Below, one piece after another: positions 5,984 to 43,692 of a stretch of 53,587 nt of DNA. The notes beneath the pieces were generated by a model that was given only the letters and a program-made list of their open reading frames with translations, was not told the origin of the DNA and made no database searches. Each line of letters opens with the position of its first letter. Positions within the stretch are counted from its first letter, which is position 1. The stretch spans positions 1 to 53,587 of the forward strand of contig QHVM01000053.1 in assembly GCA_003223555.1 (NCBI GenBank). Reading direction: 5' to 3'. The stretch is from Acidobacteriota bacterium (lineage in GTDB: Bacteria; Acidobacteriota; Vicinamibacteria; Fen-336). The position numbers and the translations under genes are program-made.

Positions 5984-6200
5984 CCGCCCGGCCGGGAATG
6001 AATCCCGTCAGGGCGGTGAGGAGTCCCTCCCTGCGGGCGCTCCGGGACGAGCTGAACCAGCTCTTCCGGCGTGAGCGTTCGGCGCGCGTAGCGGAGCGTT
6101 CCTTCTGCCGTCTCGCGGCGGATTCACTCCGACGCGAGACGTTGGGGGATGACGAGCGCGGAGCAGAGCGCGCCGTATTCGAGTTATGACGCGCGCCGCA
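5984..6200. repeat. Two REP-like hairpin elements in opposite orientation, waaF-gmhB spacer
   Basis: The spacer holds a plus-orientation copy around 5990-6056 with stem-loop CGGGA-ATGAA-TCCCG at 5993-6007, and a minus-orientation copy around 6060-6190 with stem CGGA/TCCG and loop TTCAC at 6119-6131. Read on the minus strand, the second copy (CTCCGCGCT, TCATC, GGAGTGAATCC, then GCTCCGCT, in that order) lines up with the elements at 39667-40155 downstream of smc. The loop (A/G)TGAA is conserved while stem bases change in matched pairs. I see no gene in the spacer. Confidence 0.6.
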
Positions 6201-36877: not shown

Positions 36878-39042
36878 GCGCCGTTCTTCTCTTCCTTCTC
36901 GCCGCAGCGTCCCCTCCCGACGAACCCTCGGTGAAGGCCTCCCGGCTGGTGGGCGAGCTGCGGATCGACGGCCGTCTGGACGAGCCGGCCTGGGCCCAGG
37001 CCGCCCCCCTCTCGGACCTGCGCCAGCGCGAGCCTCGAGAGGGCGAGCCGGCCACCGAGCAGACCGAGGTGCGGGTGCTCTTCGACGCGCGGAACCTCTA
37101 CATAGGTATCCTGGCCCGGGACTCTGAGCCCGGCCGGATCGTGAGCCGGATCCGGCAGCGCGACAAGCTGCTGGAGCCGGGCGGCTACGACGGCAGCTTC
37201 GAGTTCTCGGGCGACGACGCGGTGGCGGTCCTGCTCGACCCGTTCCGCGACCGGCGCAACGCGGTCGTCTTCGCCACCAACCCCAACGGCGCCGAGTTCG
37301 AGGCCCTCATCACCGACGAGTCGGGCGCCTTCAACGCCGACTGGCGCACGGTGTGGACGGTGCGGGCGCAGCGGGGGCCGGAAGGCTGGTCGGCCGAGCT
37401 GGCCATCCCTTTCCGTTCCCTGCGCTACCCGTCCTTCCCGGGGCCGGACGGCTGGGGCTTCAACGTCTGGCGGATGATCCGCCGCAAGAACGAAGAAGCG
37501 CTGTGGACGGCATGGTCTCGCACCGGAGGGGGATTCCACCGCGTGAGCCAGGCCGGACGCCTGGACGGGCTGACCGACCTTCCGCGCTCCCGGCGGAACG
37601 TGGAGGTGAAGCCCTATGGCCTGGCCGGCATCTCGCAACGGCCCGCCGCGGGGGGCGCGCTCGACACGGCCCGGGACATGGACCTGGGGCTGGATGCCAA
37701 GTGGGAGGTGACCCCGGGCGTCGTGCTCGACGGCACGATCCATCCCGACTTCGCCCAGGTGGAAGCGGACGACGAGCAGGTGAACCTGACCCGCTTCGAT
37801 CTCTTCTTCCCCGAGAAGCGCGAGTTCTTCCTGGAGAACGCGGGCATCTTCGACTTCGGCTGGCGGGGGTTCGACGAGACGCCGCCCTTCCTCCTGTTCT
37901 TCTCCCGGCGCATCGGGATCGCGCAGGACGACCACAGTCCCATCCCGGTGCGGGGCGGCGTGCGTCTCTCCGGCCGGGCCGGGCGGCAGACGGTGGGCTT
38001 CCTCGACATGTTCACCGGCGCGGGACCGGCCGAAGGGTCGGCGAACTACGGCGTGCTGCGCGTGAAGCGCGACATCCGCCGGAACGGCTATCTCGGCGCC
38101 ATGGTCGTCGACCGTCGGGACACCGCGGGGGGCAACACCGCCGGGGGCGTCGATGCCTCGTTCTGGCCCACCGAAGCCCTCAACGTGCAGGCCTTCGCCG
38201 CCCGCACGTGGACCCGGGGGCCGGGAGGAGACGGCGGAGCGTGGCGGGTCAGCGCCGACTACACCTCCGGCCGCTTCGGGCTCGTGGCCCAGCACCTGGT
38301 GGTCGGGCCGGAAGCGGATCCCCGGGCCGGCTTCGTGACCCGCACCGACATCCGGCGCACCGACGCGTTCGGCCGTTACACCGTGCGGCCGTCCTCCCTG
38401 GGGATCCGCCGGATCGACTTCTTCGCGGAGGGTCAGCACATCGCGCGCACGAGCGGGGAGAAGCAGGACGTCGGCGGGGGACCGATCGTCAACCTGGAGA
38501 TGGACAGCGGCGACAGCATGAGCGCCTACTACTTTCAAGGCCGCACGCGGCTCGACGAGCCGTTCAGCCTCGCCGGCCGGCTGCCGGTGCCGGCGGGCGA
38601 CTACCGTGTCCGCGAATGGTCCGTCTCGGCCAGCTCCAGCACTAACCGTCCCATCATGCTGACCGGAGAGGCGGAGGTGGTCGAGACCTATGGCGGCCGC
38701 CTGGCCACGCTGGGCGCCAGCGCCCGCCTGGCTCGCGACTCCCACCTGGCCCTGACGATGGGCTTCACCCGTCACCGCGTCGAGCTGCCCCGGGGCTCGT
38801 TCGTCGCCGACGTCGCCTCCGCGCGCGGGGTCTACGCCTTCTCCAGCCGGCTGGTCGCCTCCGCGCTGGTGCAGCGAAACAGCCTGGACGGCCGGCTCGT
38901 CACGAACCTCCGGCTGAACTTCATCCACCATCCGGGCAGCGATCTGTTCGTCGTCCTCAACGATGAGCGGCGCGACGGCGTGCCGCGCCGGGTGACCGGA
39001 CGCGACCTGGCGGTGAAGCTGACCTGCCTGGGACGGTTCTGA
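36871..39042 (+). CDS. Exported CBM9-like/DUF5916 protein
   Basis: 723 aa from GTG 36871 (7-nt overlap), giving a signal peptide LSAVLLFLLAAASP. The N-terminal ~200 residues are a carbohydrate-binding family 9/DOMON-like beta-sandwich (LRIDGRLDEPAWAQA, RVLFDARNLYIGI, AELAIPFRSLRYP). The remainder is DUF5916: FAQVEADDEQVNLTRFDLFF, PEKREFFLENAGIF, SRRIGIAQDD, then repeated amphipathic beta strands to the end, compatible with an outer-membrane barrel ending in F. The function is unknown; the domain is common in Acidobacteria, Gemmatimonadota and Bacteroidota. Confidence 0.85.
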   Translation: MLSAVLLFLLAAASPPDEPSVKASRLVGELRIDGRLDEPAWAQAAPLSDLRQREPREGEPATEQTEVRVLFDARNLYIGILARDSEPGRIVSRIRQRDKLLEPGGYDGSFEFSGDDAVAVLLDPFRDRRNAVVFATNPNGAEFEALITDESGAFNADWRTVWTVRAQRGPEGWSAELAIPFRSLRYPSFPGPDGWGFNVWRMIRRKNEEALWTAWSRTGGGFHRVSQAGRLDGLTDLPRSRRNVEVKPYGLAGISQRPAAGGALDTARDMDLGLDAKWEVTPGVVLDGTIHPDFAQVEADDEQVNLTRFDLFFPEKREFFLENAGIFDFGWRGFDETPPFLLFFSRRIGIAQDDHSPIPVRGGVRLSGRAGRQTVGFLDMFTGAGPAEGSANYGVLRVKRDIRRNGYLGAMVVDRRDTAGGNTAGGVDASFWPTEALNVQAFAARTWTRGPGGDGGAWRVSADYTSGRFGLVAQHLVVGPEADPRAGFVTRTDIRRTDAFGRYTVRPSSLGIRRIDFFAEGQHIARTSGEKQDVGGGPIVNLEMDSGDSMSAYYFQGRTRLDEPFSLAGRLPVPAGDYRVREWSVSASSSTNRPIMLTGEAEVVETYGGRLATLGASARLARDSHLALTMGFTRHRVELPRGSFVADVASARGVYAFSSRLVASALVQRNSLDGRLVTNLRLNFIHHPGSDLFVVLNDERRDGVPRRVTGRDLAVKLTCLGRF

Positions 39043-39321
39043 TTACCTCGCCCGACGACTGTGCAGGGCCGCCTCGGCCCGGCGCCGGATGTCGCTCCGG
39101 CTGGCCGCGAGCGGCAAGCCGACCCGCGTCACCCAGCCGGGCTGGTACAGCTCGACGCTCACGACCTCGTCCTCGGAGAGAGCGCTCTCGTTGAGCTGGA
39201 TCCGGCAGCCCAGCGTGTCCTCGAGCCAGTTGGCCGAGGCGCCGATCTCCTCCTCGAACTGCAGGGCCAGGAGCCGGTCTCGCGCCCGAAGCTGGTTCTC
39301 CGCGAAGACCACGTACGCCAC
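39043..39321 (-). CDS. Small protein of unknown function
   Basis: 92 aa, GTG start at 39321 with GGAGGGAGGGG upstream. Reads AYVVFAENQLRARDRLLALQ, then an acidic middle (EDTLGCRIQLNESALSEDEV) and a basic C-terminus (SRSDIRRRAEAALHSRRAR). No signal peptide, TM segment or known motif. Its 3' end abuts that of the DUF5916 gene tail-to-tail. Probably real given the good ribosome-binding site and codon use. Confidence 0.6.
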   Translation of the reverse strand: MAYVVFAENQLRARDRLLALQFEEEIGASANWLEDTLGCRIQLNESALSEDEVVSVELYQPGWVTRVGLPLAASRSDIRRRAEAALHSRRAR

Positions 39322-39618
39322 CGACCCCTCCCTCCGCCGCTGCGTCGGAGCCGCTCATGCGCCGCCGACGCCCGGCAAGATCATTGTATCTCACGAAGGA
39401 TAGTCGGGGAGGGTGACAAAACAGAGACAGGAAGGTCCCGGCAACGGCGCGCCTCGAGTGGCTGAAGCAACGGAGGGCGCGAGCGTCGTGCTGAGCGCGC
39501 GAGTCGTTGATGAATGCCGATATCGACTGCATCCGTCATGTTCGGCAGTCGATCAGGCCCGAGCGCGTGTGCACGACCTCGCGCCCCGATGACAGCCAGG
39601 GCGACTCGCGCGCCTTGG
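39322..39618. other. Intergenic stretch without a recognisable gene
   Basis: About 300 bp between the small minus-strand gene and the smc-tail repeat array. It is slightly less GC-rich than average (e.g. ATCATTGTATCTCACGAAGG near 39380). No convincing start with ribosome-binding site on either strand. I see nothing else in it. Confidence 0.5.
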
Positions 39619-40016
39619 TCAGCTGAAGCGGACGCTGGCCAGCTTGGACACCCCCGGCTCCTCCGTCAACCCGAATGCGGGCGCCTTCGGCTCCGCGCTT
39701 GGCATCATCGAACTGCTCGCGACGGAGTGAATCCGTCGCTCGCGGCAAAGGAGACGCTCCGCCTGCGGCGCCCGGACGCGGAGGAGCCGGGCGCTAACTG
39801 AACCTCACACTGACGAGCTTCGATACGCCCGGCTCCTCCATCAACCCGAATGCGGGCGAGCTCCGCTCCGCACTGCTCATCGTCATGCGCGCTCGCGGGA
39901 GTGAATCCCGCTTCGCGCGACGGAGGAAATGCTCCGCTTCGCTCGCCCGGACGCGGAGGAGCCGGGCGCTAACTGAACCTCACACTGACGAGCTTCGATA
40001 CGCCCGGCTCCTCCAT
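39619..40016 (-). repeat. Tandem array of displaced smc 3' ends (three copies, 175-bp period)
   Basis: Minus-strand copies at 39969-40016, 39794-39841 and 39619-39666 each resemble the last 16 codons of smc (authentic 40156-40203). The first two encode exactly the SMC terminus MEEPGVSKLVSVRFS plus TAG but differ from smc at six bases in five adjacent codons, all synonymous (smc CTG GTG AGC GTC CGT; copies CTC GTC AGT GTG AGG). The outermost copy encodes TEEPGVSKLASVRFS plus TGA. Copies are 175 bp apart (187 bp to smc). They look like gene tails displaced by successive insertions. Confidence 0.88.
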
Positions 40017-40155
40017 CAACCCGAATGCGGGCGCCTTCGGCTCCGCGCTTGGCATCATCGAACTGCTCGCGACGGAGTGAATCCGTCGCTCGCGGCAAAG
40101 GAGACGCTCCGCCTGCGGCGCCCGGACGCGGAGGAGCCGGGGGATTTGCGGTCGC
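39667..40155. mobile_element. Three hairpin-bearing ~127-139-bp elements between the smc-tail copies
   Basis: Elements occupy 39667-39793, 39842-39968 and 40017-40155. The first and third are identical over about 120 bp; the middle one is diverged. Each starts (plus strand) with the hairpin CCCGAATGCGGG, has a central stem-loop with loop GTGAA (GCGACGGA/TCCGTCGC in two, GCGGGA/TCCCGC in the middle one, a compensated change), and ends in GGAGGAGCCGGG. That end is an inverted copy of smc codons, so each tail is bracketed by a 12-14-bp inverted repeat (e.g. 39780-39793 with 39826-39839). No ORF; related sequence occurs at 5984-6200. Confidence 0.7.
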
Positions 40156-43100
40156 CTAACTGAAACGGACGCTCACCAGCTTCGATACGCCCGGCTCCTC
40201 CATCGTCACCCCGTAGAGCTGGTCGGCGATCTCCATGGTCTTGCGGGAATGGGTGATGAGGACGAACTGGGTCTGGTCCTTGAGGCCTTCCAGCATGCGC
40301 ACGAAGCGGCCGATGTTGGCGTCGTCCAGCGGGGCGTCGACCTCGTCCAGGATGCAGAAGGGCGAAGGCTTGTACTGGAAGATCGCGAAGAGCAGGGAGA
40401 TGGCGGTGAGGGCCTTCTCGCCGCCCGAGAGCAGCATCACGTTCTGCAGCCGCTTGCCGGGGGGCTGGGCCATGACGTCGATGCCGCTCTCGAGGATGTC
40501 CTCCTCGTCGAGCAGGCTCAGGCCGGCGGTGCCGCCGCCGAAGAGCTGCTTGAAGATCTCGCCGAAGTGCCGGTTGATGACCTGGAAGGCCTCGCGGAAG
40601 CGCTCCTTCGACGTGCGATCGATGCTCTTGATCGCACGGTCCATCTCGGCGATGGAGTCGACGAGGTCCTGCCGCTGCACGGTGAGGAAGCGGTGGCGCT
40701 CCTCCAGCTCCCGGGCCTGCTCCACGGCGAGCACGTTCACCGGTCCCATGCGGTCCAGCTTCTCGCGCAGCTCCTGGACCCGGCCCTCGAGGGCCGAGCC
40801 TTCCGCGGCCCGGTCCTCGTCGCTCAGACGAGCGGCCGCCTCCGCGGCGCCGGTACCTGCCGTCTGCTGGCAATCGCGGACGAGGTGATCGAGGTCCGAA
40901 CCGGTGCGGGCCCGCGCCACCTCCAGCTCGGCCAGCGCGTCCCGGAGCATGCCGTGCTCGCGGCGGCGCTCCTTCAGGGCCTGCTCGCGGCCCTCCAGCT
41001 CGTTGCGGATCTCGCGCACCCGATCCTCGGCCGCCGCCGTGTCGCCGCCCAGGCGGTCGCGGTCGGCCAGCGCGAGGGCGAGCAGCCGCTCCGACGCCGC
41101 GCGCTCGGCGGCCAGCTCCTCCCCCCGGCGGACCAGCTCGGCGGCGCGGCTGGCCCCGGCGGCGATACGCGCCTCCAGCTCCCGCCGGTCGTCCTCGAGG
41201 CGGCACCGGTCCGCCTCGACCGCCGCGGCCCGCTCGCGCAGGCCGGCCAGGACGCTCCGCGCCTCCGAGGAAGCGGCCTGGGCCGACTCGGTGGCCGCGC
41301 GGGCGGCGGCCACCGCCGCGCCCAGCGAGGCCAGGCGCGCGGTGCCGCTCTCGCGCTCGGCCTCCGCCGCCCGCAGCGCGGCCTCCAGCTCGGCCAGGCG
41401 CACGGCCGCCCGGCCGCGCTCCTGCTCGGCCTGGCTGCGCTCGGCGTCGAGGACGGCCGCCTTGCGGCGGAGCCGGGCCGCCTCCTCGTCGGCGGCGGTC
41501 AGGTCGTGGCGGACGGCCACCAGCTCCTTCTCGGCGGCGTGGATCCGTTCGGCCAGGATCGCTGCCTCGTCCTCCGCCGCCCGGGCGGCGGCCGCGTCCG
41601 CCTCGACGCGCGCGTGCGCCTGCTTCAGGAGCCGCTCCAGCTCGGCGAGGCGGGCGGTCGCTTCGCGGATCTCGCGCCGCGGCGCCAGCAGGCCGGTGCC
41701 CCCGCGGCCTCCTTCGGCGACCGCGCCGTCGAACGTCTCGCCGGCCAGGGTGACGCAGGGGAGCGGACCGTGCGCGCGGGCGACGGCCAGCGCGTCCTCG
41801 AGGCGGTCGACGACCAGCGCATCGGGGAGCGCGGCGCGGATGGCGGCGGCGTGCGGTCCGGTGACGCGGTACCGCTCGCTCAGGCGGCCGCGGACGAGCG
41901 GCTCGCGCCGGGCGATTTCGGCCAGCCGCGGGTCTTCGGCCGTCCGCGGCGCATCGAGGAGCAGCAGCGCGGCGCGCCCCGCCCCGGACTCCTCGAGGAA
42001 GCGCACGCCCTGGAGCGCCTGCTGTCCGTCGACGACGAGGACCGCCTGGAGGCGCTCGCCGAGGAAGGCCTCCACGGCCCGCTCGTGCGCGGAGTCGGTC
42101 TCCACCGTGTCGGCCACCGCGCCCTGCACCTCGATGCCCGCCGGACGGGCCAGCAGCGCGCGCGCGCCCTCGTCGTAAGCGGCATGGGTAGCGACGATCT
42201 CCTCCAGCGACGCCTGCCGGCCAGCCAGGCCGTCGCGCTCGCTCTGCAGGGCGTCCGCCTCGCGCTCGTGCCCGGCTGCTTGCCGGCGGGCCCCGGCGCC
42301 GCGCTCCGCGGCGACCTGCCGCTCGGCGCCCAGGTGGGCGAGCAGGTGTTCGGCCGACTCTTCGCGCCCCCGGGCCTCGGCGCGCAGCGACTCGACGCGC
42401 GCGCGGTCCCGCTCGGTCTCCTCGAGCTCGGCGGCCAGCTTCACGAGGTCGGCCGCGGCCCGCTCGGCGTTGCCGGCCACCGAGGAGCGCGCGTTCTGCA
42501 GCGCGGCCAGCCGGCCGAGCAGGACTACCTGGGCCTCGCGCGCGGCCTCCTGGTCGTCTTCTTCCCGGCGCTCCCGCCCGGCCGCCGACTGCGCGGTCTC
42601 TTCGGCGCGGCGAGCCTCTTCTTCCGCCTGCGAGAGCCGCGTCCGCAGGCGGACCTCGTCCTCGCGTCGGTCGGCCAGTTCGCCGTCCAGCGGCGCGACG
42701 CGCGCGCGCAGCTCTTCCTCCTCGCCGCCCAGCTCGGCGCGCCGCCGCTCCGTATCCTCGATCTGCTCCCGGCAGTAACCGCTGCGTCCCTGATGGCGGT
42801 CGACCGCCAGCGTCAGCTCGCTCAGCCGCGCGCGCGCCTGCTCCAGCATGCCTTCGGCGTCGTAGAGCGCGCCGCGGCGCGCCTCCATGTGCGCCTCTTC
42901 CGTCTGCAGGGCCAGCGCCACGGCCTGCTCCCGGCCCGACTCCTCGGTCACCCGCGCGGCGAGCCCACGCGACTGCTCCTGGAGCTCCAGGAACCGCCGG
43001 CCGAACAGGATGCGCTGCACGGCGACCATCTCGTCGCGCAGGACGCGGTACCGGCGCGCCTTGCTCGCCTGCCGCTTGAGACCCTCGAGCTGCTTTTCCA

Positions 43101-43692
43101 CCTCGTGCACGATGTCATTCACGCGCAGCAGGTTCTGCTGGGCCGCCTCGAGCTTGAGCGCGGTCTGCCGCCGGCGGGCCCTGTACTTGGTGATCCCGGC
43201 CGCCTCCTCGATGAGGGCCCGGCGGTCGGCGGGCTTGCTGGAGAGGATCAGGCCGATCTTGCCCTGCTCGATGATGGAGTACGCCTTGGAGCCGAGGCCG
43301 GTGTCCATGAACAGCTCGTGGATGTCCCGCAGGCGGCAGACCTTGCCGTTCATGAGGTACTCGCTCTCCCCGTTGCGGTAGAGCCGCCGGGTGACGACGC
43401 ACTCGGGGACGCCGTCAGGGCTGCTGCCGTTCAGGCCCGAGACCTTGAGGTTGACCTCGGCCATCGCCAGCGGCTGGCGTGACTGGCTGCCCGCGAAGAT
43501 CACATCCTCCATCGCCGTGCCGCGGAGGCTCTTGACGCTCTGCTCGCCGAGCACCCACGAGATGGCGTCGGAGATGTTGCTCTTCCCGCAGCCGTTCGGG
43601 CCCACGATCCCGGTCACGCCGCCGCGGAAGGACAGCTCCTGGCGGTCACAGAACGATTTGAAGCCGACGATCTCCACTGAGTCGAGACGCAT
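40156..43692 (-). CDS. smc: Chromosome segregation ATPase SMC
   Basis: 1178 aa, ATG at 43692, full length for bacterial SMC. N-terminal Walker A GPNGCGKSN (31-39) in MRLDSVEIVGFKSFC...; Q-loop region KAYSIIEQGKI; two long coiled-coil arms flanking a hinge around residues 500-660 (GIEVQGAVADTVETD, VLVVDGQQALQGVRFL, GPLPCVTLAGETFDGAVAEGG); and a C-terminal ATPase half with signature LLSGGEKALTAISLLFAI and Walker B CILDEVDAPLDD. SMC with ScpAB compacts and resolves chromosomes; scpAB are not in view. Its last 16 codons recur three times downstream. Confidence 0.96.
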   Translation of the reverse strand: MRLDSVEIVGFKSFCDRQELSFRGGVTGIVGPNGCGKSNISDAISWVLGEQSVKSLRGTAMEDVIFAGSQSRQPLAMAEVNLKVSGLNGSSPDGVPECVVTRRLYRNGESEYLMNGKVCRLRDIHELFMDTGLGSKAYSIIEQGKIGLILSSKPADRRALIEEAAGITKYRARRRQTALKLEAAQQNLLRVNDIVHEVEKQLEGLKRQASKARRYRVLRDEMVAVQRILFGRRFLELQEQSRGLAARVTEESGREQAVALALQTEEAHMEARRGALYDAEGMLEQARARLSELTLAVDRHQGRSGYCREQIEDTERRRAELGGEEEELRARVAPLDGELADRREDEVRLRTRLSQAEEEARRAEETAQSAAGRERREEDDQEAAREAQVVLLGRLAALQNARSSVAGNAERAAADLVKLAAELEETERDRARVESLRAEARGREESAEHLLAHLGAERQVAAERGAGARRQAAGHEREADALQSERDGLAGRQASLEEIVATHAAYDEGARALLARPAGIEVQGAVADTVETDSAHERAVEAFLGERLQAVLVVDGQQALQGVRFLEESGAGRAALLLLDAPRTAEDPRLAEIARREPLVRGRLSERYRVTGPHAAAIRAALPDALVVDRLEDALAVARAHGPLPCVTLAGETFDGAVAEGGRGGTGLLAPRREIREATARLAELERLLKQAHARVEADAAAARAAEDEAAILAERIHAAEKELVAVRHDLTAADEEAARLRRKAAVLDAERSQAEQERGRAAVRLAELEAALRAAEAERESGTARLASLGAAVAAARAATESAQAASSEARSVLAGLRERAAAVEADRCRLEDDRRELEARIAAGASRAAELVRRGEELAAERAASERLLALALADRDRLGGDTAAAEDRVREIRNELEGREQALKERRREHGMLRDALAELEVARARTGSDLDHLVRDCQQTAGTGAAEAAARLSDEDRAAEGSALEGRVQELREKLDRMGPVNVLAVEQARELEERHRFLTVQRQDLVDSIAEMDRAIKSIDRTSKERFREAFQVINRHFGEIFKQLFGGGTAGLSLLDEEDILESGIDVMAQPPGKRLQNVMLLSGGEKALTAISLLFAIFQYKPSPFCILDEVDAPLDDANIGRFVRMLEGLKDQTQFVLITHSRKTMEIADQLYGVTMEEPGVSKLVSVRFS

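Follow-up and report, generated by a model that had tools for sequence, protein, structure and literature searches.

Displaced gene tails beside a dispersed hairpin repeat at the 3' ends of smc and other genes in an acidobacterial genome

The displacement of gene tails is a real and recurrent event at the 3' ends of genes in the acidobacterial family studied here. In the window (the whole stretch of 53,587 nucleotides that was analysed), the smc gene is followed by three further copies of its own end, which alternate with copies of a short hairpin. This hairpin was shown to be a dispersed and structured repeat that sits at gene ends, in some cases with gene tails on both sides. Empty sites, decaying tails and deletions within the element were also observed. 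The best account of these data, held at a probability of roughly 55%, is that an ORF-less hairpin resembling REPINs and MITEs inserts next to stop codons with a long duplication of the gene tail, and that the duplicated tails later recombine between strains. An earlier note on this DNA had interpreted the array as the repeated arrival of a short element that brings its own version of the smc 3' end and displaces the old one. This interpretation has been partly supported.

The smc gene ends in ATGGAGGAGCCGGGCGTATCGAAGCTGGTGAGCGTCCGTTTCAGTTAG, and its last 16 codons recur three times past the gene (Table 1). The copies are spaced 175 bp apart, exactly as the earlier note had it, and the first of them is offset by 187 bp from the end of smc itself. 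Tandem Repeats Finder gave the array a period of 175 and a score of 739. On the smc strand, the order is tail 0, a 26-nt leader, core A1, tail a, a 14-nt link, core B, tail b, a second link, core A2 and tail c, after which unrelated sequence begins. Tails a and b have the same sequence and are contained in a 90-bp exact repeat; compared with smc, six bases are changed in five adjacent codons, all of them silent. The outermost copy, tail c, encodes TEEPGVSKLASVRFS and ends in TGA, with ten differences from smc, two non-silent codons and a changed stop. The array reported in the earlier note was thus confirmed to the base. Units 1 and 3 of the array (cores A1 and A2) are exactly identical over a stretch of 126 bp. 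Unit 2 (core B) belongs to a different subtype, which is that of the element behind smc in the congener, G001, the one congener compared. Copies of the smc tail outside the array were found neither elsewhere in the genome of this window (G000) nor in 13 family members.

A 14-bp inverted repeat (GGAGGAGCCGGGCG / CGCCCGGCTCCTCC) flanks every smc tail. The links repeat the beginning of the tail in reverse complement, such that each tail and its link can be drawn as a stem-loop, the stem up to 14 bp long and the loop about 32 nt. Behind smc in the congener, 13 of the 14 bp of this link are kept, and the link was not seen in family members without the element. A link of this kind, an inverted image of the tail's beginning, could reflect snap-back synthesis or a dyad target. 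A leader of about 26-30 nt between stop and core was also seen at other element loci.

Table 1. Positions of the smc gene, the units of its downstream array and one further element copy in the window
Feature	Position	Strand	Basis
smc gene, 1178 aa; living tail 0 at 40156-40203	40156..43692	-	ORF; Pfam SMC_N 1.2e-66, SMC_hinge 6e-15
Leader from smc stop to first core, 26 nt; 12-nt spacer at 40144-40155 and inverted-repeat link GGAGGAGCCGGGGG (on +) at 40130-40143	40130..40155	-	Sequence
Hairpin core A1	40018..40129	-	Covariance model R1, E 4.8e-17; 126-bp identity with A2
Displaced smc tail a, MEEPGVSKLVSVRFS and stop, six silent differences from smc	39969..40016	-	Sequence comparison
14-bp link, reverse complement of tail start	39955..39968	.	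Inverted repeats
Hairpin core B, other subtype	39843..39954	-	R1 match 3.8e-20; alignment
Displaced smc tail b, same as a	39794..39841	-	Sequence comparison
14-bp link, reverse complement of tail start	39780..39793	.	Inverted repeats
Hairpin core A2, same as A1	39668..39779	-	R1 match 4.8e-17
Displaced smc tail c, oldest, TEEPGVSKLASVRFS and stop (TGA), two non-silent codons	39619..39666	-	Sequence comparison
Further element copy, intergenic	6075..6185	+	R1 match 1.2e-20

The hairpin between the tails was not found to be specific to smc. A BLAST search of the array against its own genome gave 54 matches, and a covariance model (R1) built from 25 element copies matched 73 copies at 53 loci in G000. 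Nearly all of these lie just past stop codons, which answers the search for copies abutting gene ends that the earlier note had proposed. More than 50 copies were matched in the congener and a few weak ones in G008 and G010, which represent two further genera of the family; the same model found no element in the remaining relatives searched. The element is a high-copy hairpin at many gene ends, most copies having no detectable tail duplication, and the idea of an integrative element dedicated to smc is not supported. The unit of about 127 bp described in the earlier note indeed holds no ORF, but it is not unique to smc and its core of about 111 bp is dispersed. The consensus of this core is roughly GCGTYCGGSGMGCGNAGCGGAGCRTYTCC ... 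RGATTCAYTCY ... GCGGAGCGNAGCKCGCCGCATTCGG. Imperfect inverted repeats form its arms, which enclose an inner hairpin with the loop TTCAY, and compensatory double changes were found in 7 of 19 consensus pairs. Rfam gave no match up to E=1 for positions 39000-40500 of the window. The element represents a lineage-specific family of hairpin repeats, for which no earlier description was found. Its loci often hold tandem arrays in which flanking sequence is repeated as well.

The placement of the element was characterized with gene predictions from a simple caller based on codon usage. Of 98 element loci, none lies inside a predicted gene; a gene 3' end adjoins the element at 89 of them and divergent genes flank it at seven. 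Elements lie a median of 22.5 nt from the neighboring gene 3' end, and in many cases they directly adjoin the stop codon of the right-hand gene. Both orientations of the element relative to the gene were seen. In the reverse orientation, the element often starts 0-3 nt past the stop in G000 and G001 (TGA, TAA or TAG, then approximately CCGAATGCGG). The loop then reads GTGAA, and this orientation may be the functional RNA.

About a dozen of the element loci in G000 are shared with the congener by descent. Four G000 sites were at first presumed to be empty in the congener, and three of them were rejected as such when they proved to be internally deleted elements. These three remnants (contigs C435 at ~20.1 kb, C603 at ~22.7 kb and C418 at ~0.15 kb of G001) are deleted between the arms with their ends fused, and they sit where G000 has a full element. 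Loss at these sites is, to judge by the fused ends, internal deletion and not excision. Together with the loci shared by descent, the remnants argue that much of the element family is old and vertically inherited. Hairpins with a TTCAY or RTGAA loop and other arms (for example GGCGGCGAATTCACTTCGACGCCGC) were also observed in G000 (contig C119 at ~79.0 kb, C3:15110, C30:8209 and C133:1797). The shared loops point to a wider repeat superfamily.

Displaced tails have been found at other genes and in other genera. The left and right flanks of about 117 elements were compared, with mismatched pairs as a control. Clear tail duplications were detected only at smc and at a protein-kinase gene, in addition to a decayed case at glnA; most elements have no detectable tail duplication. 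On contig 3 of G000, the 24-codon tail of the kinase gene (FCWHCRKPLHARSDTCPFCGERQ and stop) lies on both sides of a single element. The duplication extends about 12 nt into the UTR, and the two copies have eight silent and no non-silent differences. The congener has a single tail at this locus. The proposal that the inner kinase tail is the foreign one was weakened, since the two tails, measured against more distant relatives, have diverged to about the same extent. In the congener, glnA borders on an element whose far side carries a decayed copy of the glnA tail. An apparent tail duplication of a tRNA on contig C144 of the congener was discarded, as ARAGORN finds no tRNA there.

At smc itself, the clearest case comes from a different genus. 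In G012, the smc tail is duplicated (42/42 identical) around a 143-bp hairpin, and the outer tail runs into the sequence that lies directly behind smc in the sister species G007. G007 therefore provides the empty site, and a comparison of the two genomes shows the filled and empty states base by base. The likeness between the G012 insert and the family is limited to the hairpin, the TTCAC loop and a few motifs; the insert occurs once in its own genome, is not matched by the covariance model, and possibly belongs to the wider superfamily of loop-sharing hairpins. A decayed smc tail is located 473 nt downstream of smc in G006. Between the two (locus L083) lies an antisense ORF of 142 aa that is lipoprotein-like and has no Pfam hit; to judge by this arrangement, larger DNA may also enter at the smc 3' site. 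In G011, the end of contig C53 (locus L087) stops within the smc tail ATGGAAGAGCC, at the point where a tail repeat would start. No other smc tail was found in the G011 assembly, and the position of the break suggests that an unassembled tail array exists there too. The 88 smc ends read across the class showed no similar case beyond this family in the first few hundred bases (within about 800 nt). The boundaries of the displaced tails vary from case to case, and the visible duplications span 42-85 bp.

How did tails with only silent differences come to lie behind the same gene? A plain and old tandem duplication of the smc end followed by neutral drift would give the 175-bp period, and the two non-silent changes in the outermost copy would be expected from it. 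The earlier note had argued that such drift does not fit, and the numbers agree. The chance that all changes are silent under neutral drift is 1.4e-4 at smc (six changes, tails a and b) and 2e-5 at the kinase gene (eight changes), or 0.015 and 0.004 on the assumption that the displaced copy received only half of them. As the all-silent outcome is so improbable under drift, each copy must until recently have served as a working end of its gene. Moreover, tails a and b keep the string GTCAGTGTGAGGTTC of the living smc of the congener (codons GTC AGT GTG AGG TTC), and tail 0 is further from the congener than tail a (10 versus 6 differences). Since tails a and b share this string and tail 0 departs more, a different version of the gene end appears to have replaced the old one. 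We therefore consider plain duplication very improbable. An assembly artefact is even less credible. The genome is fragmented (151 contigs) and probably metagenome-derived, some other arrays are interrupted by runs of N, and tandem identical blocks are hard to assemble; however, the smc array has three distinguishable units without any N, and the same architecture recurs at the kinase gene and in another genus.

Replacement of the old end could also be the work of a mobile cassette consisting of gene tail and hairpin, which would enter by site-specific recombination within the tail, carry its own silent variant and displace the resident tail, much like a minimal integrative element and in line with the earlier note. 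Such a cassette would account for silent-only differences at two genes and for the presence of both empty and filled sites. The first 26 nt are shared by tail 0 and tail a and are followed by one differing block, similar to an att core. However, the tails are gene-specific and the hairpin is common to 53 loci, such that each locus would need its own cassette. The variable boundaries of the duplications, the two orientations of the element and the identical tails of G012 also speak against it, and no recombinase-bearing relative was found at any smc end read (about 90 class members, first few hundred bases), where the earlier note had suggested looking for one. On balance, this explanation is unlikely. 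Displacement of the old tail, as claimed in the earlier note, is upheld by the congener's string in tails a and b, by the second gene and second genus and by the empty sites. The further claim that the arriving element always brings its own tail is not: the family is dispersed, and the tails of G012, the youngest insertion, are identical, so an element need not bring a tail. Slightly less probable still is an error of replication, in which template switching or slippage at the hairpin would duplicate the element and its neighbors, tails included, without transposition. Tandem copies with duplicated flanks occur at many loci (C126, C88, C105, C1 and C103), internal deletions between element arms are found, and the 14-bp inverted link made of the tail's own sequence resembles snap-back synthesis. 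Yet duplication of a tail-plus-element unit leaves the element outermost and not the tail, G012 has one element between two tails with the outer one leading into native downstream sequence, and silent-only differences would be left unexplained.

In the preferred account, insertion of a hairpin followed by recombination between strains, the hairpin would insert just past the stop codon and duplicate 42-85 bp of the gene end. The tail copy beside the gene body would stay the working end, and the other copy would be pushed outward and slowly decay, as the series of smc tail c, the glnA tail of the congener and the smc tail of G006 suggests by age. The tail repeats would then act as landing pads for the gene-end versions of related strains, with which they would recombine homologously (by allelic or unequal exchange) and swap silent alleles. 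Silent differences can arise from such later allelic recombination: because it would juxtapose recently working tails of different strains, the differences would all be silent. For smc, the parents may have been smc(tail 0)-A-tail c and smc(tail a)-B-tail b-A-tail c. One unequal crossover between them would yield the observed order, with A1 equal to A2 and a equal to b, and the exact identities of 126 bp and 90 bp fit a recent event of this kind.

Several observations count against this account. A long target duplication is not directly evident at most element copies, which tail decay could explain. The G012 insert is only loosely like the family, the duplication boundaries differ, no mobilizing enzyme was found in a search with PF01797, and three of the four supposedly empty sites in the congener hold deleted elements. 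A more specific proposal, that the ORF-less hairpin of about 110 bp is itself a transposable unit that targets the stop-adjacent position with a duplication that includes the functional gene end, is tentative. If true, every insertion would give a gene a spare tail and a landing pad for recombination, by an insertion chemistry that is unlike known transposases and preserves gene ends.

Small hairpin repeats are common in bacteria, and the finding bears on the manner of their spread where no transposase is obvious and on the reason for their place at gene ends. The displaced tails are dated footprints of insertion, which preserve the gene end as it was when a unit arrived and reveal in which direction units were added. 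If a long duplication of the gene end is the rule at birth, it would constrain the chemistry to nicks placed far apart or to copying through the end, and it would explain how an insertion can do no harm to a gene as important as smc. The mosaics of silent alleles provide a natural record of inter-strain recombination over tens of base pairs. It is moderately surprising that element insertions have left gene-tail duplications so long and readable.

Integrative elements and genomic islands with tyrosine recombinases target gene 3' ends. They leave the gene end functional and the old end behind the insert, with direct repeats on both sides. The element shares with them the kept gene end, the displaced old end and flanking repeats of the gene end, and empty sites are known for it (G007 for the G012 insertion and the congener for the kinase locus). 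It differs in its size (about 111-143 bp), its lack of a recombinase, its many target genes and its variable repeat boundaries. There is no gene in the unit, and no larger tail-flanked element was found within about 800 nt of the 88 smc ends, with the sole exception of the decayed G006 tail behind its ORF. No direct precedent was found in the literature searched for integrative elements at smc or for repeats that duplicate gene tails.

REPINs (REP doublets) have been described as extragenic hairpins of about 100 nt that show compensatory changes and form tandem clusters together with their flanks (PMC3116915). The element is likewise an extragenic, multicopy hairpin of about 100 bp with conserved inverted arms (which pair imperfectly), compensatory changes, dozens of copies and tandem clusters of near-identical units with their flanks. 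Unlike REPINs, its carriers have no RAYT, it is strongly placed just past stops, and it has displaced gene tails, of which none are described for REPINs in the text consulted. A search for RAYT (Y1_Tnp, PF01797) gave no hits in G000 (98% complete) or G001, while the E. coli control was found; mobilization by a REP/RAYT system was rejected on this ground for both carrier genomes. Like MITEs, the element is short, non-coding, intergenic and present in many copies with inverted, if imperfect, ends; a common short target duplication of fixed length was not seen by eye in its flanks. The YPAL or RU-2 element of Yersinia is a 168-bp hairpin, not A+T-rich, that lies at or beside dyad symmetry with target duplications of 3-26 bp, as summarized in PMC2229807. 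By this description, it is similar to the element in size and in its duplications of variable length, and it is the nearest precedent found for the latter, although the duplications reported here cover 42-85 bp of coding end. Taken together, the element resembles a REPIN, a MITE or YPAL with unusually long duplications.
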